A stretch of DNA of 64,000 nucleotides, taken from positions 8,061,606-8,125,605 of the forward strand of contig NC_088305.1 of NCBI RefSeq assembly GCF_032854445.1, in the 5' to 3' direction. This document shows positions 3,275 through 53,339 of the stretch, one piece after another. This stretch comes from Liolophura sinensis. Its lineage: Eukaryota; Mollusca; Polyplacophora; Chitonida; Chitonidae. A program made the position numbers and the translations under genes. The first letter of the stretch is position 1; each line of letters begins with the position of its first letter. The notes under the pieces are model-generated. The model was given only the letters and a program-made list of their open reading frames with translations, did not search any database and was not told the origin of the DNA.

Positions 3275-6200
3275 TCATATATTGTCATAGGACTTTCCAA
3301 CTCGCCCCCGCCTGACTGTGAACAGAACCCCATCCTGTAACACAAAAGAAATAATTGATTGGAGTTCACCCCGTACTCAAGAATATTTTGCTTTCATGGC
3401 GATGTGCACGGTGGTGCGAAAAAGGGTAGAGACCGACCACCCGCAGCAAGAAGAAGCGTGCAAGAACTGTACTTGAACTCACAGTGATCGTATTGGTGAG
3501 AGACTTTTGGGTCATTGTGCTACGCTAGCATATTAATGCTAGCCCCGTTGCATTAATGAGGCCCGTTGATAACATTCATGTTTCTGTGTCCAAATATTGC
3601 TGCATTTGTAAGACAAGGCATGCAAAATCAGGGATTATATTTTCTTACTTTCACAAAAAATGTTCAAAAAAATTTAATGTTCACAAAGCTGTATAACTTC
3701 TGAGGAGAGACATTACACAATGATCATTCAGTTAAGGCTGTTATAGGTGAACGAAGAGCTATAGAGCGAAAGCAGCAGATATTGGGCTGATCTAGTCTAA
3801 TTCAAAACGGCACAATATGATGGATTTCAGTTAGAGACGGAAAAGGTATCTTGGAGCATAAATATTAGCGGTATATGTTTGCTGTTGTGAATAACATATA
3901 CCTTGGTAGATTGTGCAAGATAAAACTTTTTTAAGGCCCGATATTTATATTGAAATGCGGGCCATTTATCTCTGTAATGTTTAGCCAACAATCAGCACCT
4001 AAACAACCTAAGTACCTGCCCAGTTTCGTTCGCTCCCAGTGTGAAGCATATATAAAATAGTACAGGTAGAGCACTATATTGCAGACTACTTTCGCGTAAA
4101 CGTGTATCCGAACCCCTTTAACATTGCCGTCGTGGCGTCTTGGTCTTCACTAGCATGGAGAGAAGACACGGGCATTTTGAATACACGGTTTAGTTGCCAA
4201 TGAAGAAATGCGAACAGTGAAAGAATTCCAGTGAACTGTCTTCTTAATTTGTTAAGAAAAATAAGAAAATGTACAGTCATTTGTTTGTGTGACTATGAAT
4301 CTTACCTTTATAAGACCAGGTGTCGCAGACCAGAAAGAATACTGTGGAATCATTTCCTTGCCGGCGGCCTTCCGTACGAACTTTTGTATTAATATTCCAG
4401 CCACGATATACACAATAAGCGTAGTGAAAACCCTAGCGTGAAGAAACAACGGTTATAGTTTACTATAACACCTATAGCAAGAGCCTTAGTATTGTGGGCA
4501 ATGATGGGACTTCGAATGTCGGAGCATTTTAATTTATGGTTGGTATGTTTATATCATTTTAACGTTTGTTATTACAAGAGCAAATGAGGCAAAGCCGCAA
4601 TATAAATACTGGAAGAACTTTTAATATGAGTGCATTCAAATCTGTCATTGGTTGATATACCAACAGCGTCATTGTGATGTTTCTTTTATACATTCAAGAA
4701 CAATAGGAGCCTTTCCGCAGTATTGTAGATATTGACAAAACTCCCAATGCCGGTGCATTCAAAAATGTGGTTGGCGCAATTAAACACTGAACACGTACGT
4801 CAGAGTGTGGTTTACCAAAACTGATGGGCACTAATCGATTTTCTTGTATATCGTCAATGCTGCTATTATAACAACAAGTAACAACAAGTTCAAATCTTGA
4901 TGGTCGATTAGAAAAACATATCTGAACATAATTTCCAGAGCACTTGAAGCGTGTCCGAAATATTGTAGATTGTATCCCTAGTATTTGATTAGTGTTGTAT
5001 GCCGTAGTCAAGAAAATTTCACTTATACGTGGAAGGCCCCTGTATCTCTCCCCCCCCACACACACACACACCTTCCCAAGGTAACCCTAGTATGCATGGT
5101 ATGCAATATCAGAAAATTTCAATGAATGGCATGGTATTCAATATCAGAAAATTTCAATGAATGGCGTACAGAAGAAACTTGGGGGTCATACGGAGAAAGG
5201 TCAAACCTGTTGACTGAAACGAAACTAAATGAACATGACATTATTGACATTGCGAGTTTTAACATATTGTCTAAACCGTCAGGAAGCAGAAAAAATACTC
5301 GCAAGTTATCGCTGTGATGGTATAAAAATATTTCCCTGTATTTCGCAGAAATTAACACCGACAACCCATATGTAGTATTGTTACATAGGTCTCGTCAGTG
5401 ACATGAGCGAGATCTGTTACTGGATTGTGTGTATATGCCACCTGAAAAGTATGTCTGTGATGACAGTGGCTGTTTTTTTGATTTGTATCATGATATCGTG
5501 AGAGTCTCTCCAAACTTTTCTGACGTGTACATGATGGGTGACTAGAATGCTAAATCGAGAAGCATTCAAAACTCCTCGGAAACTGACGAGATTCTCAGGC
5601 TTTGTACAATGGGGCCATGATGTTTCACAATTTACGTTAGGTTGTCAATTGTTAAAAAATGTGGTGTATTAACTACACGATTCTCCATGGACACGTCAGT
5701 AAACAACTGCGGTCACACGTTGACTGAGTTTTGCACGAAGTCAAATCTTTTAACTGTGGGAGAGTTGGCCAAGACAAAGGAATTGAGAAACCAGCGTCTA
5801 GAGGCACAAGGTTAATTGACTATGCCATCGTAAGCCCAGTCCTTGTTTTTTTATATATAGTTACAGACTTCGCGGTCTTAGATTTTACTAATCTACTGTC
5901 CGCTATACATTGCCCCATAGAACTTACGAACTAACCCAGGACATACGTTCACCTAGTGGCGATCCCCCTTTGCGTAAATGGGACAGAAAAAAGTGTCGCC
6001 TTTATGTGGAAAATATTTATCTCGATGTTGTTGACAGTATCTACCACACCACCTTAGAGCTGAGCAATCGTATAGGTGACTTGGGTGACCAGAATACATC
6101 TATGGAAATCAACCCAGTCGTAGATAATATCACGGACTGTCTTGCGAAAAGCGGTGTGAAAACATGTGGTCGCAAAGGATCATAAAAACTATAACAGAAG

Positions 6201-9200
6201 CTTCCATAAACCTTGGCTTGATGAGCAGTTCTCAAAAAAAAAAAAACGCAAAGAAGGTCTACAAATCAGAGCTGTATACCGCGAATACAAAACACCACAG
6301 AATGAATCAAAATTAAGGTATTCTAGCAATAAGCAGCAAGTCAAACACGTTACCCTACATATAGTGACCCATTGACAGACTGACGATGAAATAGATACTG
6401 ACATTTTATACCTACTTTAAGGACGTAAATGAGCTAGGCGAGACAGACGTGAGACAACTTGATCTAGTTGGCCCTTATACTGCTAATTCGAATGCACCTC
6501 TTTATCAGCCAAAGAGTTACACAGAAATAGAGAATGCTATTAAGGCCTTGAAAATCAACAAATCTGCTGGTTAGGATGAAGTTGCTAACGGATATATCAA
6601 AAGCACGGCTAGCATAATGACCCCCATCTACCAGAGAGTGACGACTCTATGTGCGAATCCTTGTTAAATGGTAATATCCAGCCAATCTACAAAAACGAAA
6701 AGAAAACCGAAGGCGCGGACAATTATAGAGCGATTACTATGCTTAGATGTTTAGGAAAACTCTATACAAGCATCATTAGTACGAGACTTGGTGATTATTA
6801 TGAATGTATGGAGATACTAAATGAGCCAAACAGGTTTCAGGAAAGGCTATTGGTGCATCGACAACCTTTTTGTACTGCATCATCCTACTGAATACTACCT
6901 GCGTAGAAAAAAAATGTATTCATCATATGTAGATTTCTCAAAAGCATTTGATACTGTCAGGAGAGGGAGATTGTGGTTCAAACTACCGAATGAGGGATTG
7001 GGAGGAAAGTGTTTTGACTTGATACAAAATATATATCATGTTATTAATTGCTGTGTCATAACCAAAAAATCCAAATCTGAATTCTTACTGTGTGTAACGC
7101 AGAGAGAAAATCTTTCGTCATTACTTTTTCCCTGTACTTGAGTGACCTATAAGAGTTCATGATGTATAATAATGTTGTAGGCTTATCTCGTCAGTCTCAT
7201 GATATGACTGTCCACCTTGGTGTTAATACAAATACGTATTTTATTATATGCAGATGACACTATAATAATGCTATACGGAGAGAGGCCTTCAAAGCGCCTT
7301 TGATGTTTTTATTGTATTTTATGGGAATTGGATGTCAACACCAAGAAAACAAAGATCATGATATTCTGCAAACGTTTGCCAGAAACTATACCATCGTTTT
7401 TCTTCAATGGTTGCGTCACTGAGATCATTACGGAATATGTTTATCTAGGTAATGTAATGAAACACCCAGGAACTTATTCCGCAGCTAAAAATACCTCTAT
7501 AGAAAATGTACAAATCTACATTTACCTGTTGACCGCCAAGTGAGACTTTTTGACAAATCATTGTACCCATAATTCTGTATGGTTGTAAACTATGGGAAAA
7601 ATTAAATGAAATTGATTCATTTTACTTTGAATGATGTAAACGTGTATTGAGAGTGAAACGGCGTACTCCAAATTTTATCGTCTATGGGGAACTAGGGTTT
7701 ACCCTTTGTATATAAAGGTGTATGATAGAATAATCTCATACTGGGTTAAGATCATCCAGGGTGAAGAGAAAAAGCTCGGAAACCTGATGCACAAATCTAA
7801 TTACAACTGAGACGTATGACAGTCCATGGCTTAACAATGTTAAATCAATTCTATATACACCTGGTCTAAACTTTATATGGGACACATAAGCTGTAAACAC
7901 TGCAAGTTGCTTATTAAAAGTCATGGAGCAAACATTAATAGATTAGTTTCTCCGGAAATGGTTCAGTGATAATGAACCATCTTTCAAGTGAAGAATATAA
8001 AAGGTATATAAAACAGAATTCCTGTTAGAAAAAATCTTCTGTCACTATATGAAATCAACAGGTAAGCCCGAAGTAAATTTCGGACATCCAGTCACAGACT
8101 TCCGATCGAAAGAGGAAGACGGTCTAAAACTGACACAGCGTCTCTGGAAGGCTTTCGAAACAGGTTGCACTAGTGCACAAAATTAAAGGACTTCAGAATA
8201 AAATACAAAATAGATTGCCCTTATGTCTACTCAAAGCAATATAAATTAAAACTTCTTCTGCAATCTGAAGACTCGACCAGTCTAAAAAGACTGTCGTCGT
8301 TCATAAAGGAAGGTATGATTATATGTAAGTTTTAAATGATGTTAAATGATTTAAATGTAGTTGTGTTGTGCATAGCCGCCATGTTATGTAAATATGTATG
8401 ATGCTGTACCTCCCGTAACACCCTGAGTGGTTAAAGTGTGTGTAAATAAATGACAATGAAAAGTTTATATGTGTCGAATCCGCGCATGTTTTTTTTTTTA
8501 ATTAATTTTTACCTTTATTTTTTAAGACTTGGTAATAAGTCGCTTTAGTCTCTTTGCCAACTTTAGGTCAACATAACTATTTTACGCAATAATTTGTTAA
8601 GCTGTAGTTTCTTCGGGAATCTTCTGGTTGGTTTCCCTTGTAATGTGTATACACATCACACATCCAGAGTTTTGTCAAACATCCAAGCTACTGAACATAC
8701 TCAAAAACATATTCTCCAAATACGGCGTTTTATTACGCATTTAGCTTTGTATGATATGCATTCAGTACTATCACACTATTGAGTTCTTCTCACCCATTTT
8801 CAGAGATTGCATACGTCCACATTAAAGAGTTTTCCCACCTATTTACGTTTTGGAGAATGTGAATAAGATACTGCCAAAATGCCTGCAGTCCGTTTTCTCA
8901 CATATTTGTTCTTTCGAAAAGATGCATAAGCTAACTCCATAACACTGAAATTCCTCGCGTATTTATAACATATTTATAAAATGCTCAAATTTCTCACGCA
9001 CTTAGACATTTCGTTGGAGAATGCACATTACACACTGGTACTTCCAAGGTCAAGAATTATCATATGGAGCAATATATTTATATCAGCAGATTTGTCTGAA
9101 ACACTTACACGATACAGAGTATGCTCCCCACGGACAGACCTCCAGGGCCGGGCTCCGGACCGGGCTTTGGTGTAGTGCTGGGAGGGGCGGCCTTGGGACA

Positions 9201-11296
9201 GGCATATTTACCCGTGTATGTCAAAGTCTGCAATGTAAAATACCACGTAAATCTCAACAACCTGTATTACGTGGTCGCTTAAGACGTGGAAAGTGTTAAC
9301 ATAACATTACAATTACCTCCCCACAGGAGATTCATGGTGGAGCGGTTAAGGTGTCCTCCTTCCAATCGCTAGGTCAACTTGATAAGAAATTTTCCCTGAG
9401 TGTACTGTTCTCGGGGACTTATTGGCAGTAAATTGTCGAGAGTGCTCTTTTATGTAGTCTAGCAACGAACTGGCTTTTTCCCAGCAATACATGTTATTGG
9501 TGACTCCGGTTGCCGTGAGTTTAACTCTCTTTTCCTTTCCGGTCGTACGAGGGAAGGACAGCCAGCAACGGGTAGATTGCTTTGCGTTTCCACCGGGTTC
9601 TTCCAGGTTTCCTCCCACCATGATGCTGGCCGCAGCCGAGTATGTGAAATATTCTTGAATACAGGCCAATAAAGGCCAATGAAATAAATAATTAAATATT
9701 ACAACATGCGCTTTTCACTCACATATTGTTTTGTCACCGTCTCTCCCTGTGCAGTAACTGTTCCTGGATCCTGTGTGTTGTCACAGTTTAGATTTATCAC
9801 TGTTTTTCTGAAAGAAAGTTTAATGTATTTTATTATACGTGATTTGTGTTTTATACCAAAAATTCAACTCATGCCACGATGGTACTGAACCCATAAAGCT
9901 CACCGCTATCGTACACGTGAAGAACCCTTGAGTATGGAATTAAACAATAATCAAATAAATAAAGATGCGAGAATTGATGGGGTAAACAAGGCAGCTCCCA
10001 GGGATGTTGGGCCTCGGTGGTCGAGTAGTTAGCATGCTAGCGCAGCAGAGTGACTCAGGACACTGTCATCAATTACGTCTCTGTGAGTTCAAGTCCAGTT
10101 CATGCTGTACGTGGGAAGGTCCTACAGCAACCTGCGGATTGTCGTGCGTTTCTTCGGTTTCTGAAATAAACTTAAATGCGGCGTAAAAAACCAGCCAGTA
10201 AGAAAATACTGGGATGGTGGGGAAACCCACGACCATCCGTATGTTGCTGAATGACCTTTCCGGAGTGGAAGTCAGGCCGATATGAACTTCAACTCACAAT
10301 GATCGCGTTGGTAACAGTCATCGCGTTGGCTCTTGGGTCATTGTGGTGCGCTGGAACATTCGAATTCAAAACCTTACACGACAAAGTATTTGTGGCTCGT
10401 ATAACATTTAACATAAGTACTTTATCCTAACCACGAATGAATGAATGATTACGACTTAGCGCCACATTGGCAATATTTCAGCCATATTGTGGAGAACATA
10501 ATCACGAATGATGAAAATCCAAAGTATCATATACTAAATTACATGACCATTTTAATATGTTTCTTTGTTCTTCACATAAAAATACTGATATTACTTCGCC
10601 GTATTAAGTTTCCTGGTTAAAATATGATGTCGCCACGATATGGCTTTAATTGGCGGAAGTGGCGCTTAGTAATTTTCATTCTATCATTTATTTATTTATT
10701 CACCCAATGCATGAAAAAAATATAACTACACTATTACCTCCCCAGAAGGGGTTATATATTTTCTCGGCTTTTCTTTGTCAGAAAGTTTTCGGAACAAGCT
10801 ATGCAGGGATTTGGATCAAAGTATGTTCAAAGGTTGGCATTTGGCCATTGACCAATACATTATGTCTTGACGGAAATCCGATCCGATCCAAGAACTGTTA
10901 AACGATTGCACAACAGGACGGGATGGATTTGGATAAAAGGATGTGGAAAGATTGTCCTGCGGTCAATGACCCCAACATCATGTTTATGTGGGGATTATTT
11001 AGGGCAGTTCAAAGTATTGTTCTTTTTATTAGCAACGAAGGGATGGTTTCATTTCGTTGGGGTGAAGGTTTGGACCCATGGAATGCTTGCCAGTTCTTAA
11101 GTGCAAGAAAGCAAAATAAGTTGCTGTCATGGGAAATATAAATGGAAACTCCATTGTCTCTAACCAACCTTCCGTCCGAGGTGTTGTCAACATAATGCAG
11201 TGTTATTTTCCCGGACCCGTCCGTCTGAAATGTAGCCGTCTCTTGTTTGCCGATGTTAAAATAAGCAGGCGGGTTCCCGGGCTGGACTTGACATGA
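3275..11296 (-). CDS. Cassette 5 (E3-E7): C-terminal half of MRH/M6PR-like membrane receptor
   Basis: Exons: E3 11296-11169, E4 9807-9723, E5 9227-9109, E6 4432-4306, E7 3334-3275 (TGA). Joined to E1+E2 it gives 262 residues. E3 starts SCQVQPGNPPAYFNIG; E4 has TVINLNCDNTQDPG and ends GETVTKQY; E5 has YTGKYACP and the longest stalk (39 codons, rich in Pro, Gly and Thr), ending LSVGSILCIV. The membrane segment is VFTTLIVYIVAGILIQKF, then VRKAAGKEMIPQYSFWSATPGL. E7 has DGVLFTVRRGR and ends SYDNI, a YxxPhi signal at the C-terminus. It is most like cassette 4. A decayed LINE sits antisense in intron 5. An AATAAA lies about 105 nt past the stop. No further cassette was recognised between here and the left edge. 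Confidence 0.84.
3362..3575 (-). mobile_element. SINE family 1, diverged copy
   Basis: Contains CGTACTCAAGAATATT, TTGAACTCACAGTGATCG and TGAGAGACTTTTGGGTCATT in the order expected for a minus-strand copy. It begins just upstream of the E7 acceptor of cassette 5, in intron 6. Confidence 0.75.
4984..5038 (-). mobile_element. SINE family 1 tail fragment
   Basis: TTGATTAGTGTTGTATGCCG followed by TCAAGAAAATTTCACTTATACG matches the SINE 3' end. Confidence 0.6.
5096..5165 (+). repeat. 35-bp direct duplication at the 5' edge of the LINE remnant
   Basis: Two nearly identical 35-bp copies (5096-5130 and 5131-5165, beginning ATGGTATGCAATATCAG and ATGGTATTCAATATCAG) lie head to tail where LINE similarity begins. 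This may be a 5' tandem motif of the element or a local duplication. Confidence 0.6.
5166..8460 (+). mobile_element. Decayed non-LTR retrotransposon (LINE) with endonuclease and reverse transcriptase remnants
   Basis: Plus-strand frames, broken by stops and frameshifts, carry remnants of an APE-type endonuclease (LLTETKLNEHD near 5210; YMMGD-stop-NAKS near 5530, where a stop replaces the usual Phe) and a reverse transcriptase: NYRAITMLRCLGKLY near 6725, TGFRKGY near 6825, YVDFSKAFDTVRRGRLW near 6930, the catalytic LLYADDTIIML near 7245, and TKIMIFCKR and YVYLGNVM further on. The 3' part holds more remnants and ends near an A/T-rich ATAAATGACAATGAAA tail. The organisation is that of CR1/jockey/I-like LINEs; the clade cannot be fixed. 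It lies antisense in intron 5 of cassette 5 and cannot encode working enzymes. Confidence 0.85.
9330..9697 (+). mobile_element. SINE family 1 relative with a different 5' head
   Basis: The 3' half (TTTCCTCCCACCATGATGCTGG ... GTGAAATATTCTTGA ... AATGAAATAAATAA, shortened here) matches family 1 in plus orientation, but the first 200 bp with TGGAGCGGTTAAGG differ from the usual head. It ends about 25 bp from the E4 donor of cassette 5. Confidence 0.7.
10008..10165 (+). mobile_element. SINE family 1, 5' part
   Basis: GGCCTCGGTGGTCGAGTAG, TTAGCATGCTAGCGCAGC and GTGAGTTCAAGTCCAG are the tRNA-like head and body of family 1. The 3' end is missing. Confidence 0.75.
10222..10352 (-). mobile_element. 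SINE family 1, partial
   Basis: AAACCCACGACCATCCGTAT ... AACTCACAATGATCGCGTTGG ... TTGGGTCATTGTGGTGCGCTGG, in shortened form, matches the minus-strand copy order. Confidence 0.7.
10735..11115. repeat. Probable dispersed repeat with GGATTTGGAT motifs
   Basis: GCAGGGATTTGGATCAAAG and GGATGGATTTGGATAAAAGG, each followed by AAAG and a TTG/ATTGACC block, look like internal subrepeats of a dispersed element. Two overlapping plus-strand frames here carry no recognised domain. Confidence 0.4.
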
Positions 11297-14089: not shown

Positions 14090-17000
14090 TCAAATGTCAC
14101 TGTAGCCCTTTTTTGGGTGCTGTCCTCGCCTTACAACGAACAATGTACCATCCTGAAAGTGTAAAAACAATAGGCTTGATCATTACACCGGATATGCGAA
14201 TATTACTTTTTAGCCTTAGCTGACAAAGTGTTATTTTACATTGGGTAATGCGCCGATATTTTTGGATTACTATTTCCTCTGTTTGAAAAGAGAGGAGGGG
14301 GAAGGGGGAGGGGGGGGGGCGTAAATATCGCCCTAAATATGGTGCTGCCTCACTGGAAATCCACGGCCATCCTTCGTTTACTAATTTCTCATTTCTTTAA
14401 AGATTTTCTTGGTTTTCTTTATTTTATTTTTGAAAATGTTGGGGGATGGAAGTCGCGTATTATGGACGTCCGGGATATAGATTTACTTGCCCTCACAAGC
14501 CCCGGCAGACGTGACCAGAATCCGACATTAGGTATGATTTCCTTTCCGGACGCTTTTCGGACGAAGATCTGGACAACTATTCCGATGGCAACGTACACAA
14601 TGATAAGTGCAAAAAATCTGGAAATGAAACATGGATCATTTGATTCATTCGCTGGGAGTATATTGAAGAGAGGCCATGAAATCAGTGTTAGCCTTGGTCA
14701 GCCGTCATGTTGTCAGCTGGTTTTTGTTATGTCAACCAAGTGAGGTTATTTTTTTTGCCCGTGTTTGTTTCTATATTCGTCCATTTGTCAGATGAGCGTG
14801 CTGATGAGCATATTTGGATGACACGGCTCAGCCTTAGCTGTGCCGGAGCTTTTTACCCTCGGAATGCCGTTTATGTTATTATATCCTTGATCTCATACGA
14901 TCTGAAAAATATACTCATGATCTTCAAACTGAGAGCCCCTGAACCAGACATTTACAGGATTCTGACATCTTCAACAAACCTTTACAAATTCTTCATTCAA
15001 AATAAAGTATACAACAACATAAACATGATCAGGCAAACCGAACAACTTTGTCTTACAAAGACATGACACAAAGATGTGTAAATGTTTCTTTGAAAACGCA
15101 GAGTTGTTCTGGCCATGCTAAGAGTAAGCAATGCAGAATATTATGAAAGTCAACCGCAAAGAGAGTAAAGCCTAAGTACTGAGGACAACTTGATCCCTGG
15201 AAATGCTCACATGTATGTTACACGTGATGACATTTTCAGTAATTCTTGACTAATGACGTCTAATAAATTGCAATTAACACCATTGCATTTTTTAACCTGA
15301 TTCTGCTTAACCTATGGTGCTAGAGGGCGTGTAATTTGCTTCTCTTATGCATTTACGTGAACAATTAGAATAAAACCCTGACTGAGGTAAACTGACAAAA
15401 GACCCCATTTCACCGGTCACTTGTGACCATTAGCCAACTATCACACTGTCGTCACTCCTGTGGTTTTACCGTCTATGCTGTAGCCGTATTTCCCTGGTCA
15501 TGTGTGATCATTTGCCAGCTATCACACTGTCGTCGCTACTCTGGTTTTTATTCTGTGAGCTGTAGCCGTATTTCCATGGTCATGTGTGACCATTTGCCAG
15601 CTATCACACTGTCGTCGCTACTCTGATTTTTATTCTGTGTGCTGTAGCCGTATTTCCCTGGTCATGTGTGACCATTTGCCAGCTATCGCACTGTTGTCGC
15701 TGCTCTGGTTCAACTCTATGCTTTACGTCTCTAATGTAACAGGTGAAATCCGGCCTGTTATCAATTTACATCAGCCGGGGCTTTGTTCTAAATGGCTATG
15801 TAAATGCCCAGAAACGAGCAACTTATGCACACCTCATCGCCATGGCCTAAACAGAATTAGGTAAGAAAAAATGCTATATTAATACAGTGCATCAGATGCC
15901 GCAGTTATTAGTCTCGACTTAACCTTTATTATACACTCACATGAAGTTGTCTTCGTTTATCATCATCACTTGTCCATTCCATGCTTGACGAAAAAGCCCG
16001 TAATTTTTTTTTATGGAAACGGTATTATAGCTGATATTTGTAATTCCTACTTACTGACATGCGCATTCGTCCATTTCGCATATAACACACACATAGGCTT
16101 TTGGGAAATACGATAGTCCAATCGATAATAACGATGTATTTCCCCGAGCGAAAAGAGACATTGTATAAATTTCGATACAATGATGTGCATCTACAGTAAC
16201 ATTTTTTGTCGGGAAGGTGGGAAAGACGATGGCGATAGCATGCTTCATTTCAGTCTACAAAATGACTACAAAAAATCTCTTTCATTGTTTGTACATCGCA
16301 AGTGTCAATCATTTTTACAATTGGGATGCATTCTTAGATCATGCACATAAGTGAAAACCAATATGTATGTATTTGCATACAGTGTTTACTGTATCTCATA
16401 AAGCCAATCATAAAGTGACCAAGATGTTTACATAGAAACACGCTGACCTCAGAGCAGGATCTTGCTCTATAGTGTATCGTTATCTCACGTCGCGATAAAT
16501 AACAAATCAGTGTCTGTGAGTATGTATCTTACACTTTACACTGGATACTGATGTTCAGGACATTACATGACTATTCATGAATAGTATTTTAAGCTGTACC
16601 CTAGTTATACATGAATCTAATTTTATCCCTTACACTGATTACTAATAAACTGTGTTTAACACTATACAATGAATAGTGATGATCCATGTTTGACACTGAT
16701 GAAGCGTGTTTAACACTATACACTGAATACTGATGAACTGTGTTTAACAATGTACACTGAACACTGATGAACTGTGTTTAACACTGTACACTGAATACTG
16801 ATGAACTGTTTTTAACACAATACGCTGAATACTGATGAACTGTGTTTAACACTATACGCTGAATACTGATGAACTGTGTTTAACACTATACACCGAATAC
16901 TGATGATCCGTGTTCAACACTGAATACTGATGAACCGGGTTTAACGCTATACACTGAATACTGATGAACTGTGTTTAACACTGTACACTAAATACTGATG

Positions 17001-20000: not shown

Positions 20001-22156
20001 TTATTCGCTGTATACCGGCGAACAGGATGGAAAACCTATCTATTAGAAAATGGCGAACAAGATGCAAAACCTATCGATTAGATACTGGCGAACAGGATGC
20101 AAAACCTATCTATTAGAAAATGGCGAACAGGATGCAAAACCTATCAATTAGATACTGGCGAACAGGATGCAAAACCTATCTATTAGAGAATGGCGAACAA
20201 GATGCAAAACCTATCGATTAGATACTGGCGAACAGGAGGCAAAACCTATCGATTAGATACTGGCGAACAGGATGCAAAACCTATCTAATAGAAAATGGCG
20301 AACAGGATGCAAAACCTATCGATTAGATACTGGCGAACAGGATGCAAAACCTATCTATTAGATACTGGCGAACAGGATGCAAAACCTATCTATTAGATAC
20401 TGGCGAACAGGATGCAAAACCTATCGATTAGATACTGGCGAATAGGATGCAAAACCTGTCTATTAAATACTGGCGCAGAGGATGCAAAATTCATCTATTC
20501 GATACTAGCGAACAATCTAAAACTGTCTAAAACCTATTCAATGGATACTGGCAAACAGACTCTAAAACCTATCCACTGGATATTGGCGATCAGGGTCTAA
20601 GACATATCCACTGGACATTGATGGAGGACACCAGGGGTACTTACACAATGCACAGTATACTGCCCACTGAGAGCCCTCCTCCTCCTCCTCCGGAGGGCGT
20701 GGGCGATGGTGGGTTCGAAGTGGGACAGGCGTACTTTCCGGTATATTCCATGTTCTGAAAGTAAAAGACAGTTTTTGCTCTTTTTTTAATTGGAACAACA
20801 AAGAACGAGCATAAGAGCACTGTTTAATATAAATATGTCGGTTAGTAAATTTGTGTAATGTAAATGTGGCGTTCAGCAAGATTGTTGACACTATTTTTTC
20901 TAAAATTTGGAATTATGATCTGCTCATTTTAGCCAATATATATTTCATTCCAGCAGGAATATAGAGTTTCTTTTTTCTCACATGGTTACATCATCTAATG
21001 AACAACATATTCATATCTTAACTTTTCCAAAAAGCCTGTAAAAGAAACCCACACTAGAAATATCTGCCCCAAACTTTAAAAAAACTAGGTTTATGTAAGT
21101 TTGGGTTTCAGCAAAATTCTGTTTTCTATCTCAAACTCGGGACTCAGAAGCCGATGTCAATTCTCGTCAGCTACTGGTAGCATGAGCACTGGAAAGCCGC
21201 TCCCTTTACACAACCTTAAAGTCTGGTAGAAAAGGAGACAAGAGCTAAGACGTTTGAAGGTGATCGTTCGTCGTTTGATTCATATTTTAGACCGCACTGT
21301 TTGAAAAAACTGAAAAGTGCACCAAGTAACACTATTCTACTGATAAACACGAGAAAAAGTGGAGCCGAATTGTGATAACGTTTGCATTTACATGTCATAA
21401 CTTTAATTCGACGAAATGTTAGCTACAAGTAAAAATCGATTGTATATATTCACAAAGTTAGTACGTAATTTGCTTTTGACGCTGCTATTTATTCCCATAA
21501 AAATATTTTCACCTTGAAACCTGGGCCCACTTTATACATTGTACATTTAATGTATCAGTTATCACAATAAAGAAACTCCGAAAAGTCATTTTGATATAAT
21601 GGTCTATAATAAGAAATCGTCCGTTTGAATTTGGACCGGACTTTACGTCGCCGTTACAAATGGCAGACTTCTCATATTGACAGGCAAATGTTCCATATAA
21701 GAAGAAATGCAGCCTTGGTATGACTTACGTATTCCGCCTGTATGGTAGGATCTTCTCCTGTCGCCGTAACCTGCCCAGGGTCCTGACTTTGATCACATGT
21801 GAGAGTGACGTAGGTTGTCCTGACCAAAGAATGCAAAACAACACGTGAAAACGTAGAAATAAATATCATTTAGAAAGTTGATTTCATAGTATCAAAATTA
21901 TCGTTATTAGGGGTAACACTTCTCGTATATAGCTCACATTCTAATTCTACAAACTAGTTGAAATCACTCTTAGTTTCGAACCAGCAACTTCAGAGTCAGG
22001 ATCCAAATCAAGGTCAGTGCATGTCAGTCGTTTAGACCACTTGATGGAATACACTTTGAGCAATCCAGGTAGAGTAGATTAGATCTGTCACCTGTACACA
22101 TATATTAAATGAATTCTGACTTACCATACTGGGTTCTGTGAAATATTATAGAAACA

Positions 22157-22205
<49 letters not shown>

Positions 22206-35200: not shown

Positions 35201-37295
35201 CCTTAATATAAAAAAAAATGGAGTTATTAAGGGCGAGCTGAAAACTGAAAATAAGGTTAATCTATGAAAAACTAAACTAATTTGTTTCGTCATTAAAATC
35301 GTTTGCATGTTGTTGTCACCTAGTTTTAAATAGTTCTTGTCATAGATGTGCTGGGTGTAACAGTATTTATTTATGTAGCGGTATTTCTTTTCAGCGGTAT
35401 TTCAGTTAAAGAGGGCATGCGCACGACAATGTTTGACAACAGCTTCCTGTTCCTGTGTCGCCCTGCTCATGTGGGTCTTTGAGAACTGGCAAAACACCAT
35501 CTTTTGAAATATAAATAAAGTTTTTTTAACTGGTGGTGAAAATAATGGCCTCCGGCGCCACGGCCCAATAATGACTGCCAAAATGTTGATTCCCGGAAAT
35601 GTACTAAAATAGGAAATTAAACAATCCTTGCAAGCTCTCGTCCGTATAATGCGTTCTAAAAAATGTCATGGGAAAATGGCCTCTTTGTATCACCTGTAAT
35701 GTGTATGATGATCAACTTTCAAACGTCTGATTTGAATCTATATAATAATCAACATTGTTTTAATCAGAAACGGGGCCTCCCTGGCCCAGTATTTATTTAT
35801 TTGATTGGTGTTGCATGCCGTACTCAAAAATATTTTAATTGTACGACGGCGGCCAGCATTATGGGGGGAGGAAAACGAGCAGAGCCAGGACGAAACCCAC
35901 GACCATCTGCAGGTTGCTGTCAGACCTTCCAACGTACGGCCGGGGAGGAAGGCGACCACACTGGTCATAGGCTCCTGGGCCACTGCGCCGCGCTGGCGTG
36001 CTAACCTTCTCGGCCACGGAGGCCCCGTCCCCGGTGGAGTGGTTTGCTTGCCAGTGCAGTCTCTCACCAGTGTGATCGCTGTAAGTCCAGCTCATGCTGG
36101 CTTCCTCTCAGTTCGTACGTGTGAACGTCTGACACCATAGTACCGGCCACTAATGTGTTAGTGAGCACGACGTCATAGACTAATGAAACACAGAAATGAA
36201 TTAATCACTATCATACTATAAAGATCTGAGGATTCCTTTAGAGGATAAGAACTCAACCTCATGTGTGATAAAATGGCTGTGCCATTGGTGTGTTGGTTTT
36301 ACTCAGCCAGCGAGATCCCGGCTAGCTTAAGCTGAGAGCATACATTTCTGAAGTAGGTATTTTATGGTATTTCACCTTCCCATGCCAAAAAAAAAAAGAA
36401 AGCTCCCGTCTTGCTATTCCCGACGTTTTCCACACACCTGATTCTGTTACAAAGTAGTTGTACTTATGTGTTAGTGGTCATGCATGCAGATGGAAGGAGC
36501 ACGGAAAAGCGTATGGGAGATCCCAGCATCTTGCTGAACATTCGAAAACTCTCATGATATAGGGTAAAAAAGATATGAGCCCCTGTTGGGTTTCAACCTA
36601 TGACCTCAAACCTCAGATAATTTGATCAATGGGGGCTTTCTGATTATTGGTATGGGGGGGGGGAACACTAAAACCTTGTCACTCACGTAATTTGTGGGTT
36701 GCAAGGGGTCCTCTCCTGACGCTGTCATAATTCCAGGATCATTGTTTGGATCACACGCCAGGGTGACGTAAGTGGTTCTGCAACATCAATTCATATTCAT
36801 ACATGGTACTTGTAGCTGCCACCCTTGGCGCTTAGCACATACACCTAACTGGTTGGACCGGTGTCAGTATGATGTGACAGGATGGGGTGTCATGCCTGCT
36901 GTCTTCAGCATGATACTTCAGTGGTGGCGGTATTTTGTCCCCCCTGCCACAAAAAGACACAATATTCGCACACACTCTTCGTCGTCATATGACTTATTGT
37001 TAAGTGCGACGTTAAAACCCAGGCATACATACATACACAGACACATACATACATATATACATACATTCATCGAAGGCACGTTTTGTGGCATCTCTTCTTC
37101 AAGCGCAGAGAGACAAACATATTAGCTAAAACGTTACAAGATGCAACATGTACTTAAGCTTGGCACACACCTCGTTGTTCCGTCCAGTGTGGCAGAATAT
37201 ACCAGAGTCACAATTCCACTGGTATCGGTGTGAAACGCGGCACTATCTTGAGTGCCGGTTGGAAAACAATTTTGTGTGGATGTTATTTGACAGGC
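32246..37295 (-). CDS. Cassette 2 (E3-E7): C-terminal half of MRH/M6PR-like membrane receptor
   Basis: Exons: E3 37295-37171, E4 36777-36687, E5 34847-34753, E6 33815-33689, E7 32302-32246 (TGA). Joined to E1+E2 this makes 254 residues. E3 reads ACQITSTQNCFPTGTQDSAAF, so it carries an extra cysteine and has lost the aromatic-x-IG stretch seen in cassettes 1, 3 and 5. E4 has TTYVTLACDPNNDPG and ends in GEDPLQPTNY. E5 has YSGKYAC and a short Gly/Ser stalk ending SPGSIICIV. The membrane segment is FLALLFVYVAGGVAVQIF; the tail continues VRKESGVKAIPQSSFW. E7 begins DGFFFVIRYRKR and ends YSKT, close to the YSKV internalisation signal known from the cation-independent mannose-6-phosphate receptor but with Thr in the hydrophobic position. 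The acceptor of E3 is strong. An AATAAA lies about 120 nt beyond the stop. Confidence 0.83.
32435..32720. repeat. Dispersed repeat family R1, copy c
   Basis: AATCAGAGCAGTGACGACAG, TATTACAGGTGAAATTCAGCC and GGTATAGAATTACTCAAAATG match R1. It lies in intron 6 of cassette 2. Confidence 0.7.
32795..33155 (-). mobile_element. SINE family 2, nearly complete tRNA-derived copy
   Basis: On the plus strand it reads from a diverged tail (GGGGTTTAACGTCGTACTTA) through CATGCCGAAGACACCAGACA and AACCTCTCAGTGCTGAGCGC to a tRNA-like head (CGGATGCTCTCGCCATTACG). The minus strand gives the GTAATGGCGAGAGCATCCGC start. It lies in intron 6 of cassette 2, near E7. Confidence 0.78.
34190..34418 (-). mobile_element. 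SINE family 1, nearly complete tRNA-derived copy
   Basis: On the minus strand it has a tRNA-like head (GGCGCCTCAGTGGCTCAGC then TGGTTAGTGCGCTAGCGCAG), a conserved body with CCAGCTCATGCTGGCTTCC, CACCATAATGCTGGCCGCCG and GAATATTCTTGAGTACGGCG-like stretch, and an AATCAAATA tail. ATTATTGGCCAAG (34164) and ATTATTGGCAAAG (34419) look like a target-site duplication. The conserved 3' body resembles the MetaSINE-type domain known from lophotrochozoans; that name is from memory and unverified. A stretch of the body is deleted. Confidence 0.88.
34872..35551. repeat. Recent 349-bp tandem duplication in intron 4 of cassette 2
   Basis: Two nearly identical copies (34872-35203 and 35221-35551) start GAGTTATTAAGGGCGAGC and end GTGGTGAAAATAATGGCC, 349 bp apart. 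Only a few differences were seen, such as CAGCTAAAG against CAGTTAAAG. The first copy begins some 25 bp upstream of the E5 acceptor. Confidence 0.95.
35790..36027 (-). mobile_element. SINE family 1, full-length-like copy
   Basis: Runs from ATTTATTTATTTGATTGGTG through CGACGGCGGCCAGCATTATG to CTTCTCGGCCACGGAGGCC, i.e. tail to tRNA-like head, in intron 4 of cassette 2. Confidence 0.87.
36050..36130 (+). mobile_element. SINE family 1, internal fragment
   Basis: CTCTCACCAGTGTGATCGCTG and CAGCTCATGCTGGCTTCC in plus orientation, directly beside the opposite-strand copy. Confidence 0.65.
36838..37020 (+). mobile_element. SINE family 2, 3' part
   Basis: TGGACCGGTGTCAGTATGATG, GTCTTCAGCATGATACTTCAG and CTTATTGTTAAGTGCGACGT in order, followed by an ACAT tail. 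It lies just upstream of the E4 acceptor of cassette 2. Confidence 0.75.
37020..37075. repeat. (ACAT)n microsatellite at a SINE tail
   Basis: Imperfect ACATACAT run at the 3' end of the family 2 SINE copy at 36838-37020. Confidence 0.75.
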
Positions 37296-40187: not shown

Positions 40188-43100
40188 TCATACATTTTCA
40201 TATCCTTTGTTAACTTTCCCGCAGGAAAAGGAAAAGTATACTCCAGCCTGAAAAATAAATGTAATATAAAGACATACAGTATAGAGAGTAAAATAAAAGC
40301 AACGACGACAGTGTGAAAGTTTGAAAATGGTCATCCGTAACCTCCTGTAAATTTACATTTACCACTGCTTTATTTTATTTATTCATTTAGATTTACGCCG
40401 TACTCAAGAATACTTCACTTATACGACGGCGTCCAGCATTTGGTTGGAGGAAACCAGGCAAAGCCCGGGGAAAACCCATGACCATCCGCAGGCTGATGGC
40501 AGGTCTTGCCACCTACGGCAATCCATCCATTCATTCATCTATCCATCCATCCATCCATCCATCCATTCCTTTACTCAGATATCAACCCATCCATCCATCC
40601 ATTTATCTATCTATCCATCAATTCATCTACCACGCATCCATCCTTCCTTCGAACCATCCATCCATCTTTCCATCCATCCATCCTTTCACCTACCGATCCA
40701 TCCATTCATCCATCCATCCATCTATTCTTTTCCTCACCCATCCATCCATTCATTCTTTTACCCATTCATCTATCCATCCATCCATCCATCCATCCATCCA
40801 TCCTAGCATTCACCCATCCATCCATACACACATCTATCCATCCATCCATCTATCCATATACACACCCATCCACTATCCATCCATCAATCCATCCATCAAT
40901 CCCTTCATCCATTCATTCTTTTCCCATCCATCCATCCATTCATTCTTTTACTCACCCATCCATCCATCCATCCATCCACCCAACCACCCACCCAACCACC
41001 CACCCATCCAAATCCATCCATCCATCCCTCCATCTATTCACTCTTTCCCACCCACCCATCCATCCACTCATTCATTCTTTTACCCACACATACACTCATC
41101 CACCTATCCATCCATTCATTCATACTTTTACCCATCCATCCATTCATTTGCCATGCATCCATCCTTCCTTCCAACCATCCTCCATTCATCCCATTCATCT
41201 ACACACCCATGTGTGTTAGAACTAGAGGTGTACCTGTATGAGGCCAGGCAAACTTGTCCAAAACAAGACGTGCGGAATGAGATCTTTCCCAGACGATTTC
41301 TTGAAGATTTTCTGGAACACCACCCCGCAGATGAGGTACAGGAATAGCAGAATAAAGAATCTGATAAAAACAAGAACATGAGCAAGCACGACTACAATTA
41401 CATAGAATGTCAACAGCATGTAAAACTAAACAAGATCATTTTCATCAGATGAGCAGATCCATTTTATGGGGTAACAAATCACGTCAACATATGTTCACTT
41501 GTATCACGGAAATCAAGTTTGGCGAAGTTAAAAACGTTCACGTCGGACGACTTTTCTTAAATAGACTCGTACATAATCAAGGTAGGCTCGATAGGCATTT
41601 GACGTAATAGGTCAAAGTATTCCAGTTAAACTAGACAAGTTGTGATATTAACATGGTACCTAGTCGCGCCTGGGCAAAGCCGTAAAAATTCAGTCAACCG
41701 CCAGGTTTGAACCCGCGTCCCTTTAGTCCTAGCGATTTAACCTCTCGGTAGAGGCAGCTCCCGACTTTCTGCTTAATTTTTTTAAGACGCATACTCCAGC
41801 AGGGTAAACTTACATAATGAGCAGAATGCTTCCGGCTGAGAACCCATTTCCGGAATCAACATCTGCCACCGGACATGCGTAAACACCCGTGTAAACCATA
41901 AACTGAAATCGAAAACATGGAATTTTACATTAGAGAAGTGATTAGTAAATAAAGCCTCTAAGTTTAGATTGACAATTATCCTCGATAAGACAGAGCGACA
42001 AATAAGAAATCTTCAGCTAATAGAGTCTTCACTGGCTCACAATTGTTCTCCATAGAACCGAGCGCCAAATAAGGGACCATGATCGGATGGAGTTTCTCTA
42101 GAAATGCTTGTCGATTAACCCCCAAAATTTTGCTGACTATTCCAAAAAGATTTCCCTTGCAGTCTTTGTCTGTTTTGGTTTCTCGTCATGATCTATGCAT
42201 CTATGCAAACAGACATTCGTCAACAAATATGGACGTTCCGGGTCAATAATCTCAAGAAAATTTCCTAAAGCGACGTTTAACACAAATTACCAAAGAACTA
42301 AGGAAGTATATGGATAGAGAAGCAGTCAATGGAGCGAGCAAATGGTTTACGTCCAAATCCAAAGGACACCAAGTGAGTACAGGAATCGTAATAGAAAAAC
42401 ACAGCTTTTGTATCGAGCAAATGTGAGGTACAGTCTCCTGTCAAAAAGCTAATTCTACAATCATCTACATAAATGAAGTGTCAAACGGTGGGGAGCAAGG
42501 CAGGCAATCGGCACGTCTTGGAAAAACTTGAAAAAATTGGCATTGTTTCCAAAGAGTTCTCAGCATTGTTGGGTACTGTATTACTACATCAACCAAGATT
42601 TAGGCAGCCCTGCAGGTATAAATACTGGCCGGAGAGCAATTTCAACGATGTTGAAAAGACACAAGTTATGTTCAAGGCTAATGAGTGAGATCAGTACTCA
42701 AGCCAAATACCATGATAGTACAAAAGTTATCGATAACAAAATATGAATCTCAGTTGCGCTTTTATTGCAAGTGCCCATATCCTCTACAGCTGCTGTATAA
42801 ATAATGATGGGAATATCACAAACGCCCAATTCAATTGTAACCTGTCTTTTGCGTCCAAGGTTCCCGGTACCACGGGGGCAATAAGCGGACGTCCGGACAC
42901 TGTCTTGTTTAAGACTACATGTAGCTCGCTATAAACAGTCTGACCCACAAATATGATGTATATCTCGTGTGCAAAAGTTCGCCACTTACTCGCGAGAGTT
43001 AGTAGATTTACTCACGGAACATCAGTTTCCTCCATGTATAAAACAGGTGGACGTGGTTTAAGCTAAACATTCTTGAGAATGACGTTGAGCAACAATCAAA

Positions 43101-44000
43101 TAAATTGAGATAACTTCAATATAGAGAAATACGAAGAAAGGCCGAATTACCAACACTGTACTTACGTAATTTGCTAACATCCGGGGATCCTCACCGATGG
43201 CTTCAAACGTTCCTGGCGATCTCCTGGGATTACAGATCAGATTCACATGGGATGTCCTAGAAGAATATAAAACTGTTTAAGCTCCGTGGGTCTCCGTGGC
43301 TCACTTGGTTAGCGCGCTAGCGCAGCGTAATGACCCAGGAGGCCATTACCAATGCGATCGCTGTGAGTTCACGTCCAGCTCATGCTGGCTTCCTCTCCGG
43401 CCGTACGTGGGAAGGTCTGCAGCAACCTGCGGACGGTCGTGGATTTCCCCCGGGCTGTGCCCGCTTTCCTTCCACAATAATGATGGCCGCCGTCATAGAA
43501 GTGAAATACTTATGAGTACGGGGAAAAACAGAAATCAAATAATAAGATAAATAAATAAATCTCAATTCATGGTTGTAAAAGTGAATATATGATGATGGTG
43601 CCTTTTATAGAAGACAACTTTGACGAATAAGAATTACACTGGTACTTCTTCTTTTTAAATTTTTAGTGTTTGCTATTTTTTAGTGTTTGGTTTGTCATGT
43701 ATTTTTATTATTTTATTGTAAATTGTCTACAGGATTAGATCTAGGACAACGGTAAAAGGAAATTAATAGAACGAAACTGAGCAGAATTCATTAGTAGCGT
43801 GCATTAAGTTTTTGTTGCTTTTGTTTAGATGTAAAATTCATTATGGAAAGTAATTTGAAGATATCTTACCGCTTTACGCCTCCAATCGTTGCTGAATATT
43901 GAAGGGACAGAAGATTTCCAATTCCGGAAACAAAGGCGGCGCTGTCTTGCGAACCAATGTTGATGTAGTTGAAAGGAACTCCGTTTTGAATTTGACAAGC
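40188..44000 (-). CDS. Cassette 1 (E3-E7): C-terminal half of MRH/M6PR-like membrane receptor
   Basis: Five exons: E3 44000-43870, E4 43256-43166, E5 41902-41814, E6 41360-41234, E7 40247-40188 (stop TGA). With E1+E2 they give a 255-residue protein. E3 begins ACQIQ and contains [12 protein letters not shown]4 has [11 protein letters not shown] and ends [11 protein letters not shown]5 has YTGVYACP and a short stalk. The membrane segment runs from the end of E5 (SILLI) into E6 ([15 protein letters not shown]), then [19 protein letters not shown], a pattern shared with the tail of cation-dependent mannose-6-phosphate receptor. E7 ends GYENV, a YxxPhi-like signal at the extreme C-terminus. Gln, Glu and Tyr of the sugar pocket have counterparts; Arg at Cys+2 is Pro, though two Arg follow. 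The E3 acceptor (TTATACGAAG) lacks a pyrimidine tract. E7 starts Ala-Gly where the other cassettes have Asp-Gly. Confidence 0.82.
40265..40365. repeat. Dispersed repeat family R1, fragment
   Basis: GACATACAGTATAGAGAGTA and CAACGACGACAGTGTGAAAG match the R1 start, within intron 6 of cassette 1. Confidence 0.6.
40385..40518 (-). mobile_element. SINE family 1, truncated, joined to CATC repeat
   Basis: ACGCCGTACTCAAGAATACT to GGCTGATGGCAGGTCTTGCC matches the 3' half; the copy breaks off directly at the CATC microsatellite. Confidence 0.8.
40518..41215. repeat. Imperfect CATC tetranucleotide microsatellite
   Basis: About 700 bp of (CATC)n with CATT, CACC and CATA interruptions. It starts at the end of a truncated SINE and stops about 20 bp from the donor of cassette 1 E6, so it occupies most of intron 6. 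Long plus-strand frames rich in SIHPS come only from the repeat. Confidence 0.95.
41655..41765 (-). repeat. tRNA-like pseudo-sequence, probably a SINE head
   Basis: The minus strand has GAGCTGCCTCTACCGAGAGG and GGGTTCAAACCTGGCGG, with a good B box (GGTTCAAACC). The paired arms do not form a clean cloverleaf by eye, so it is called a tRNA-derived repeat. Confidence 0.4.
42185..42790. repeat. Dispersed repeat family R2, split copy
   Basis: R2 start (GGGTCAATAATCTCAAGAAA, AAAGAACTAAGGAAGTATAT) at 42235-42330 and R2 end (CGATGTTGAAAAGACACAAG, GAGTGAGATCAGTACTCAAG) at 42645-42790 are separated by about 250 bp of other sequence. In intron 4 of cassette 1. Confidence 0.65.
43284..43562 (+). mobile_element. 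SINE family 1, full-length copy next to cassette 1 E4
   Basis: Head GTCTCCGTGGCTCACTTGG, body GCTGGCTTCCTCTCCGGCCG and CGGACGGTCGTGGATTTCCC, tail AATAAATAAAT. It starts about 28 bp upstream of the E4 acceptor in intron 3, so it sits where the branch point would be. Confidence 0.88.
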
Positions 44001-46763: not shown

Positions 46764-46863
46764 CGCCACATTTGTACAGGTGCCGTCCCCCTCAGAGAAT
46801 GGTGTGCACGGATTCCAGGAAAAAGAGTTACCCCCAGCGTCAGAAGACTGGATATCTTTAAAT
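46764..46863 (-). CDS. Constant exon E2: middle of the MRH-like domain
   Basis: The exon lies between a strong acceptor (TTTTATTTGTCCAG) and a consensus donor (GCG|GTGAGT). It is 100 nt: one base completes Lys57 split from E1, followed by 33 codons ending in phase 0. It encodes residues 57-90, including FSWNPCTPFSEGDGTC and a final NVA. The aromatic-x-NPC-x-PF...C...VA pattern is typical of MRH/M6PR-like domains and supplies two cysteines. Its phase-0 end fits the phase-0 start of all five downstream E3 exons, which begin [A/S/M]CQ. I scanned the stretches upstream of each other E3 for a comparable NPC exon and found none, so this looks like a single shared exon. A 37-bp minisatellite ends about 140 bp before its acceptor. 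Confidence 0.82.
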
Positions 46864-48888: not shown

Positions 48889-48946
48889 CATGTATATAAA
48901 CACAGACAATATTATGAAAACAAGCTGTTTTATTAATCAATTTACT

Positions 48947-52582: not shown

Positions 52583-52629
52583 TTTGATTCTGACTGAGAC
52601 CGTCTTCTTCAGCACATGAAATTCCATCT

Positions 52630-52860
52630 ATTTATTTGTTTGATTGTACACCGTACTTTTTTCCCGCTTGTATGACGGCGGCCATTATCATGCTGGGAGG
52701 AAACCGGTCATAGCAAAGGGAAATCTCACGACCATCCGAAAGCTTCTGCTGGACTTTCCCACCTATGACCGGAGAGGACCGAACATGAGCAGGACTCATA
52801 ACTCGTAATCGATGGTAAGACGCCCATGTGTTATTGTTCTACATTAGCTCGTCATGGAGG
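52630..52860 (-). mobile_element. SINE family 1, diverged full-length-like copy
   Basis: TTTATTTGTTTGATTGTACACC, GACGGCGGCCATTATCATGC and GACTTTCCCACCTATGACCG to CTCGTCATGGAGGCC, in order, within intron 1. Confidence 0.78.
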
Positions 52861-53169
52861 CCATCGTGGAATGTAATGACAATCGCCATTAGGCTGACCT
52901 GTCTGATGACTTCTTTAGGAAATAAAATTGCCATGAATTGACTAAGTAATGTATTAAAATCTAGCTCCCTAAATGGCTCGACTAAATATGCACTCATGTT
53001 CATGCTCGGTGGAAATCATCGACCTTCACCAGAGCCGAAGTCTCGATCTCATTGGTCAAAAGCCTGCATGATTGTCGCAATGACCCAACGCTTTATTTAT
53101 CTGAACCATTAAGACAGGGTTCCCTGAGTACATATTCGTTTAATTAACGTACGAACATAAGTAACATAC

Positions 53170-53339
53170 TTTGGGTCTCCACCTCCGCTATCCAATGGTG
53201 ACAGATCTATGGTCCCTTGTGAGTTCTTACAACTGCAAGCGCTAATTTTGGTACAATCATCCGCCAGTACCTTCCGTTGAGAAACCATGGTTGTGATCAG
53301 CAGCACGAACGTCAACAAATGGTAACTTGGAATCGCCAT
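53170..53339 (-). CDS. Constant exon E1: signal peptide and start of MRH/M6PR-like domain
   Basis: The exon starts at the only ATG of its open frame (53339, context ATCATGG); an in-frame TAA lies ten codons upstream. It encodes 56 codons plus two bases and ends at an AA|GTATGT donor. Residues 1-26 form a signal peptide (basic-free start, core LLTFVLLITT, likely cleavage after VLA). The mature protein begins DDC and has three cysteines in CTKISACSCK, followed by GTIDLSPL. A Cys-rich start followed by G-x-IDLxPL is usual for MRH (mannose-6-phosphate receptor homology) domains of secretory-pathway receptors. The protein should enter the ER as a type I membrane protein. The next exon in phase is E2, about 6.3 kb downstream. 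No second copy of this exon was found. Exon structure is clear; the family assignment rests on motifs, not on a search. Confidence 0.82.

Follow-up and report, generated by a model that had tools for sequence, protein, structure and literature searches.

One 5′ exon pair and five putative alternative 3′ cassettes in an MRH receptor locus of the chiton Liolophura sinensis

The 64,000-nucleotide stretch of Liolophura sinensis DNA analysed here (the window) carries on its minus strand a single E1 exon and a single E2 exon, followed by five complete cassettes of the exons E3 to E7, all in frame with E2. We propose that the locus is a single transcription unit spanning some 50 kb, in which the E2 donor would be joined to any of the five E3 acceptors to give five single-MRH type I sorting receptors. 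Judging from the genomic sequence, we put the probability of this reading at about two in three. The cassettes are designated a to e, and their exons are listed in Table 1.

Table 1. Exons of the shared 5′ part and of the five cassettes, in window positions.
Exon	Features	Position	Strand	Copies
E1, common	start codon; signal peptide judged by eye; three leading MRH cysteines; donor phase 2	53170..53339	-	single copy
E2, common	FSWNPC strand of MRH domain; donor gtgagt, phase 0	46764..46863	-	single copy
a E3	weak acceptor cgaag	43870..44000	-	
a E4		43166..43256	-	
a E5		41814..41902	-	
a E6	membrane span	41234..41360	-	
a E7	tail end YENV; stop	40188..40247	-	
b E3		37171..37295	-	
b E4		36687..36777	-	
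b E5		34753..34847	-	
b E6		33689..33815	-	
b E7	tail end EEYSKT (without YxxPhi); stop	32246..32302	-	
c E3		29460..29584	-	
c E4	T and F in ligand R and Y columns	28654..28741	-	
c E5		27971..28077	-	
c E6		26628..26754	-	
c E7	tail end YDGM; stop	25777..25833	-	
d E3		23835..23965	-	
d E4		21729..21819	-	
d E5		20645..20754	-	
d E6	GC donor, AGG/gcaagt	14491..14617	-	
d E7	tail end YSDI; stop	14090..14152	-	
e E3		11169..11296	-	
e E4		9723..9807	-	
e E5		9109..9227	-	
e E6		4306..4432	-	
e E7	tail end YDNI; stop; AATAAA 103 nt beyond	3275..3334	-	

The five spliced frames, each consisting of E1, E2, and one E3–E7 set, encode products of 255, 254, 257, 263, and 262 aa for a to e, respectively, with no frameshift and with the stop reached. 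All 25 cassette exons are open and can be spliced. Rebuilding the gene models returned the coordinates that a first-pass annotation of this DNA had given for the start codon (53339), the last base before the E2 donor (46764), the E3 acceptors (44000, 37295, 29584, 23965, and 11296), and the final stop (3275). The models also agree with its reading that every cassette is phase-compatible with E2, since the E2/E3 junction has phase 0 in all five and the frames stay open to the stop. The other junctions likewise have the same phases in the five cassettes, as follows: 2 at E3/E4, 0 at E4/E5, 2 at E5/E6, and 0 at E6/E7. Two splice-site details need correcting. Cassette d has a GC donor at E6, the exception among 22 donors that are otherwise GT. 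Cassette a has an AAG acceptor at E3, the only one among 26 acceptors, of which 20 are CAG and five are TAG. The share of CAG among AG dinucleotides on the minus strand is 0.31.

The predicted products, 254–263 aa in length, belong to the M6PR/ATG27 type of receptor with a single MRH domain. All five isoforms pass the cut-off of Pfam PF02157 (Man-6-P_recep), and four, the exception being c, pass PF09451 and PF00878. Translations of the cassettes alone pass PF02157 in all five cases, with the match beginning inside the profile. Because members of an exon class match one another with E-values down to 9e-16 when the strand is compared with itself, and because all five cassette-only translations pass Man-6-P_recep, the homology is not a matter of chance. 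The shared E1–E2 part makes up the N-terminal half of the MRH domain, with five cysteines. Hydrophobic stretches are seen by eye in E1 and E6, and that of E6 is also matched by the family profiles. CQ and YAC are invariant in the five cassettes, as are a W, an L, and a G in the part of the tail next to the membrane; FW is found in four of the five, as is DG (within the profile match over the membrane span and tail). Four of the five tails carry a C-terminal YxxPhi.

The ligand columns were fixed from the alignment of isoform e with CI-MPR (whole-protein E = 0.0033), using the Q, R, E, and Y that we take to be the ligand residues of CI-MPR domain 3. The residues aligned to these positions all lie within the cassettes, and therefore the whole recognised pocket is cassette-encoded; the earlier idea that the cassettes hold halves of the pocket has to be given up. 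Q, R, E, and Y are present in a, b, d, and e. Cassette c has Q, T, E, and F, that is, it is without two of the four. The likeness to cation-dependent M6PR and ATG27 (PF02157 and PF09451) thus consists of the profile match over span and tail together with four ligand-type residues in four of the five isoforms. To our knowledge, the known M6PR/ATG27 members are single genes with one 3′ end. The likeness to the MRH repeats of CI-MPR (IGF2R) lies in the aligned Q/R/E/Y, in the cysteine pattern, and in the PF00878 match. CI-MPR has fifteen MRH domains, whereas the products predicted here have one.

A second E1 or E2 was sought by tblastn over both strands of the window, with an E2 profile, and by a test for exon recurrence, and none was found, which bears out the first-pass annotation on this point. 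The best non-self tblastn matches within the window have E-values of 0.91 for E1 and 0.83 for E2. As positive controls, tblastn recovers E1 (6e-8) and E2 (3e-4) of the paralog P2 and E2 (0.002) of the paralog P3, the stretches searched for the window, P2, and P3 being comparable in size (64–70 kb). E2 is the stronger control of the two, for E1 was detected in P2 but not in P3. In the two 10-kb flanks of the window, tblastn gave no convincing E1, E2, or extra cassette exon among matches of at least 19 bits. For missed copies in the spacers, a profile search had been recommended; with the E2 profile, the true E2 scores 40.2, against 11.8 for the next minus-strand score, and the maximum on the plus-strand control is 21.6. 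Family E2s, each left out of the profile in turn, score 23.7–36.3. The P3 E2, which is outside the profile, scores 21.1, and the profile alone barely parts it from the plus-strand maximum. On the repeat-masked strand, the recurrence test regained E3, E4, and E6 each in nine of the ten cassette pairs, E4 being about the length of E2; it is weaker for E5 (six of ten) and for the short E7 (one of ten). No exon class beyond E3–E7 recurs between cassettes in this test, which masked 18% of the strand as repeats and would miss exons located there or unrelated between cassettes. The silence of genome-wide protein searches on E1 and E2 copies elsewhere weighs little, since the P3 E2 was missed there too.

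Five complete genes in a plain tandem array, with E1 and E2 copies overlooked, would be the commonest result of tandem duplication. The paralogs, on the same chromosome, do stand as separate genes elsewhere: P2, with one set of E1–E6, and, as far as found, P3 have their own 5′ exons, each with an E2 detected by the same query and a phase 0 donor as here. In the present locus, however, tblastn, profile, and recurrence test, with their positive controls, yield no second E1 or E2, and the inter-cassette spacers, 1.8–2.9 kb long, are completely sequenced, the window containing no N. With no E1 and E2 of its own found for each copy, such an array is largely refuted, and we consider it highly improbable. 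A different account gives b to e private, unrelated 5′ exons and promoters, to which homology searches would be blind; the locus would then comprise five overlapping or tandem genes with common ancestry in E3–E7 only. The recurrence test, which brings out no other class between the cassettes, speaks against this. Further, a half-domain with five cysteines could hardly be replaced four times by an unrelated exon, and the relatives P2 and P3 retain a recognisable E2. Private 5′ exons therefore appear unlikely. First exons with a signal peptide and a phase 0 GTRAGT donor were also scanned for, and none came up in the five spacers or on the control strand; the scan is uninformative, because the donor of E1 itself would fail the pattern.

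In all ten cassette pairs, pS is 0.73–0.87 versus a pN of 0.29–0.47, with synonymous sites near saturation, and third codon positions are the most divergent. The substitution pattern of the cassettes, as read from their codons, is one of purifying selection. The introns have only repeat-like stretches in common, at non-corresponding places. It follows that the copies are old, and a recent duplication or a duplication in the assembly is ruled out. In a tree of E3–E6, a to e form a group that excludes P2 and the C8 copies (support 0.82), and the inner order is poorly resolved. The locus probably originated by tandem duplication of the E3–E7 block alone.

The same data bear on whether b to e are dead fragments of a decayed tandem array, the sole gene being E1–E2 with cassette a. 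Both the GC donor of cassette d and the state of cassette c, which is the furthest diverged (33–37% identity) and has lost two ligand residues, would fit decay. Yet all 20 exons of b to e are open and their splice sites usable despite near-saturated synonymous sites, and decay would call for the improbable course of four separate losses, each confined to E1 and E2 and leaving the rest intact. Given the high pS, the low pN, and the intact exons, pseudogene remnants are very unlikely. Instead, we infer, as the best reading of the selection on the cassettes, that the E2 donor is spliced to each of them. Automatic annotation might label b to e as pseudogenes or 5′-truncated genes.

The proposed mechanism is as follows. 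A pre-mRNA would start from a single promoter upstream of E1, and in each mRNA the E2 donor would be spliced to a single E3 acceptor. Cleavage and polyadenylation past the E7 of the chosen cassette would end the mRNA, the cassettes acting as alternative terminal units. For the distal cassettes, proximal acceptors and poly(A) sites would have to be skipped, and the weak acceptor of cassette a would help such skipping. The signal peptide and the first half of the MRH fold would come from E1–E2, and the four CI-MPR-aligned residues from the cassette, along with stalk, membrane span, and sorting tail. Since the cassette would supply both pocket residues and tail, the choice would alter sorting as well as ligand preference, which in c would be changed or lost, and would leave the front half constant. 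Because phases are identical across cassettes, any mixture of E3 to E7 in order, drawn from cassettes in their genomic order, would be in frame, with 126 such mixtures possible (counted by hand). That exons of different cassettes are also mixed in genomic order, in cis or in trans, with pocket, stalk, span, and tail of one lectin-like receptor shuffled, seems doubtful.

Two kinds of signal were considered around the cassettes. Poly(A) hexamers lie 3′ of every E7, the first AATAAA at 566, 119, 485, 945, and 103 nt for a to e. As AWTAAA occurs once per 416 nt on the minus strand, these hexamers are not above chance, and they were dropped as support. Upstream of the five E3 acceptors, no common word beat resampled sequences, of which 38 of 40 did as well for 12-mers and 9 of 40 for 16-mers; a docking/selector system was therefore not found, and the candidate motif was dropped.

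UGT1 has its variable cassettes at the 5′ end, and mod(mdg4) and lola encode nuclear factors. The present locus resembles sDscam, the clustered protocadherins of vertebrates, and UGT1 in combining tandem cassettes with a constant part; for chelicerate sDscam, the excerpt of PMC4835542 describes cassettes of 2 or 4 exons. The cassettes of sDscam and the protocadherins are 5′ and have their own promoters, whereas the variable cassettes that can be recognised here lie at the 3′ end and begin inside the MRH domain. The first-pass annotation had called the locus the reverse of UGT1 and the protocadherins. This holds for the 3′ position of the variable part, but a constant 5′ with a variable 3′ part is already known and has precedents such as mod(mdg4) (PMC12692577, in excerpt). 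According to that excerpt, the constant 5′ exons of Drosophila mod(mdg4) are trans-spliced to many alternative 3′ terminal exons, part of which lie on the opposite strand, and lola is named as another trans-spliced locus. The locus described here has the same plan, read from the genes alone: one common 5′ exon set and several phase-compatible 3′ sets.

The shared plan lends some support to trans-splicing, in which b to e would be transcribed separately from their own promoters, without a coding 5′ half, and E1–E2 would be added in trans to give the same proteins. All five cassettes, however, follow E2 in its own orientation, which is the arrangement that cis-splicing requires, unlike those mod(mdg4) 3′ exons that the excerpt places on the opposite strand (PMC12692577). 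We therefore hold trans-splicing to be quite unlikely and favour joining of E2 to the cassettes in cis. The locus further differs from mod(mdg4) in that its cassettes have five exons and that the border between shared and variable parts cuts a receptor ligand domain. Among the literature matches listed and the excerpts cited here, there is no M6PR-family locus of this kind, no multi-exon 3′ receptor cassette, and no set of five-exon cassettes splitting a receptor ligand domain. The excerpt of an Aplysia immunome study spells out 'P-type lectin' as a protein that contains an MRH domain (PMC9334734).

If the junctions are real, the polarity of this receptor locus would be the opposite of that in UGT1, sDscam, and the protocadherins. 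All products would have the signal peptide and half of the ligand domain in common, and a five-exon 3′ cassette would set pocket and intracellular sorting jointly. The locus would then offer a direct test of how a single 5′ splice site selects one of five acceptors that span 35 kb and may have poly(A) sites between them, and of how a fold can be divided into constant and variable halves. As to nested genes, no tRNA was found at the locus, and 31 open frames of at least 110 aa were listed.

Every exon was rebuilt directly from the DNA of the window (G000:C11:8061606-8125605, 64 kb from contig C11, without gaps, in a genome of 609 Mb), and the exon coordinates of the first-pass annotation proved correct. 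After E2, the minus strand holds five blocks, cassettes a to e, each with five exons, E3 to E7. Among the 22 donors, 21 are GT and one, at E6 of cassette d, is GC; the 26 acceptors comprise 20 CAG, 5 TAG, and one AAG, the last at E3 of cassette a. From E1 and E2, the frame is open to a stop with any cassette, giving products a to e of 255, 254, 257, 263, and 262 amino acids, respectively, and exon phases are identical across all five cassettes. Tandem repeats occupy several introns. A 37-bp minisatellite (31 copies, window 47005-48158) lies about 140 bp before E2 in the E1-E2 intron, the 6 kb E5-E6 intron of cassette d contains a 34-bp array (53 copies, 16695-18447) and a 35-bp array (25 copies, 19632-20514), and intron E6-E7 of cassette a holds a long 4-bp ATCC/GGAT array (40521-41191).

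Positions of the shared exons, the paralogous genes P2 and P3, and two further MRH relatives (E1 and E2 in window coordinates)
Feature	Position	Strand	Description
E1	53339-53170	minus	single first exon
E2	46863-46764	minus	single second exon
P2	C11 about 32-44.5 kb		own E1, E2, E3, E4, E5, E6; phases as in window gene
P3	C11 about 51900-79400 (loci L008, L009, L012)		own E2, E5, E6, E7, intact splice sites; tail end YQQI
MRH relative	L001 900-1571 (contig C8)	minus	single open frame, 223 aa stop to stop
MRH relative	L002 996-1622 (contig C8)	minus	single open frame, 208 aa stop to stop

The cassettes are old duplicates, and b to e are best explained as using the shared E1-E2. In the ten cassette pairs, pS is 0.73-0.87, at or near saturation, versus a pN of 0.29-0.47, and third codon positions are the most divergent in every pair. 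Introns have only repeat-like stretches in common between cassettes. Nevertheless, all 20 exons of cassettes b to e are open and spliceable. The argument for sharing is that these old duplicates are otherwise intact, and the two exons missing from them are precisely those present as a single upstream copy in the same orientation. An E3-E6 tree separates a to e from P2 and from both C8 copies (support 0.82), the order within a to e being poorly resolved.

The first-pass annotation had found no other E1 or E2 between the cassettes, and none was found here by tblastn, an E2 profile, or a self-comparison of open stretches. With E1 and E2 as tblastn queries on both strands of the window, only the known copies were detected, the next matches having E=0.91 (E1) and 0.83 (E2). 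The profile search for missed copies, as carried out for E2 with a core profile built from five family members, gave the same picture: the true E2 scores 40.2 and the next minus-strand place 11.8, while the best score on the plus strand, taken as a control, is 21.6. E2s of the family score 23.7-36.3 when excluded from the profile in turn. The P3 E2, which is outside the profile, scores 21.1, far above the rest of the window's minus strand but no better than the best plus-strand chance score. The self-comparison covered all 913 open stretches of at least 20 aa on the repeat-masked minus strand. It recovered 9, 9, 6, 9, and 1 of the 10 possible pairs for E3 to E7, respectively, plus five further pairs outside exons, weak or within repeats. 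No E2 class was recovered from this strand, with 18% of the window masked; since E4 is similar to E2 in length, E2 copies conserved to the degree of E4 would be expected to form a class here too. Searching the two 10-kb flanks of the window gave no convincing match to E1, E2, or any cassette exon.

P2 and P3, on the same chromosome, serve as positive controls. Window E1 and E2 detect their P2 counterparts at E=6e-8 and 3e-4, and the P3 E2, whose donor phase equals that of the window E2, is detected at E=0.002. E1, E3, and E4 of P3 were not found in the P3 region, so that recovery among these relatives is 2/2 for E2 and 1/2 for E1. Over E3-E6, identity to P2 is 36-42% for a, b, d, and e and 24% for c; a, b, d, and e share 41-60% among themselves and 32-37% with c. 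Because the cassettes are generally more alike than they are to P2, E1 or E2 copies of cassette age should, judging from these identities, be no harder to detect than those of P2. Genome-wide searches missed the P3 E2 and therefore say little on E1/E2 copies elsewhere.

We propose that one primary transcript is made, in which the E2 donor would pick one among the five E3 acceptors, lying 2.8, 9.5, 17.2, 22.8, and 35.5 kb downstream for a to e, and that each choice would terminate at the chosen cassette's own poly(A) site. No word shared before the five E3 acceptors rises above resampled sequence, and the poly(A) hexamers that follow the five stops lie at distances expected from chance spacing. 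Skipping of cassette a would be compatible with its poor acceptor. Since phases are equal across cassettes, mixed cassettes would also be permitted; by calculation, 126 ordered mixtures would be in frame.

All five products exceed the cut-off for Pfam Man-6-P_recep (PF02157), whereas ATG27 (PF09451) and the CI-MPR repeat (PF00878) are each passed by four, cassette c failing both. Without E1-E2, all five cassettes still pass PF02157, with the match beginning only inside the profile. Isoform e aligns weakly with the CI-MPR structure 6um1 (E=0.0033). In this weak alignment, the columns of Q, R, E, and Y, which we take as ligand residues in CI-MPR domain 3, map to E3, to the E3/E4 border, to E4, and to the end of that exon; thus, none lies in the shared half. 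All four residues are present in cassettes a, b, d, and e, and cassette c has Q, T, E, and F. By eye, there are three luminal cysteines per cassette, but four in b, and five in E1-E2 after the signal peptide. Odd counts on both sides of the shared/variable border, as for every cassette but b, suggest a disulfide bridging it. The C-terminal tails of a (YENV), c (YDGM), d (YSDI), and e (YDNI) have the form of YxxPhi, an endocytic signal; that of b ends in EEYSKT.

As described in PMC12692577, mod(mdg4) joins constant 5′ exons to alternative 3′ exons in trans; the same paper names lola as a further trans-splicing locus. The window locus likewise has constant 5′ exons and alternative 3′ ends, with junctions predicted from sequence. 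The chelicerate sDscam genes, according to PMC4835542, carry tandem multi-exon cassettes at the 5′ end and are likened to protocadherins; in the window locus, in contrast, such cassettes are 3′. Among the literature matches listed, with most subscription papers outside coverage, there was no M6PR/MRH locus of such a plan and no case of multi-exon 3′ receptor cassettes. The gene plan is therefore already known in outline, and no precedent appeared among these matches for a multi-exon receptor form of it that divides the ligand domain.

Other relatives occur in the genome. On another contig, four stretches at G000:C9:31384272-31389000 score over the cut-off for PF02157, the match of one of them reading through an internal stop; unlike these, the window, taken exon by exon, has no PF02157 stretch at E<=0.001. 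The C9 region probably represents the ordinary gene for cation-dependent M6PR in this genome. The two C8 relatives have equivalents of E1 to E4/E5 without introns; as their frames contain no membrane span, they are perhaps secreted or spliced on. Downstream of P2 E6, G000:C11:25976-31027 (loci L005 and L006) holds two 48-bp minisatellite arrays of 34.7 and 68.7 copies. Their consensus includes a 3′ splice site followed by what may be a very short terminal exon, ttttcag/GAAGGTGTCTTGTTCTTTAGTTTATGA, reading EGVLFFSL-stop and E7-like. In 14 units, TTTTCAG is unchanged ahead of an in-frame xG start, and the minisatellite is apparently a last exon turned satellite.
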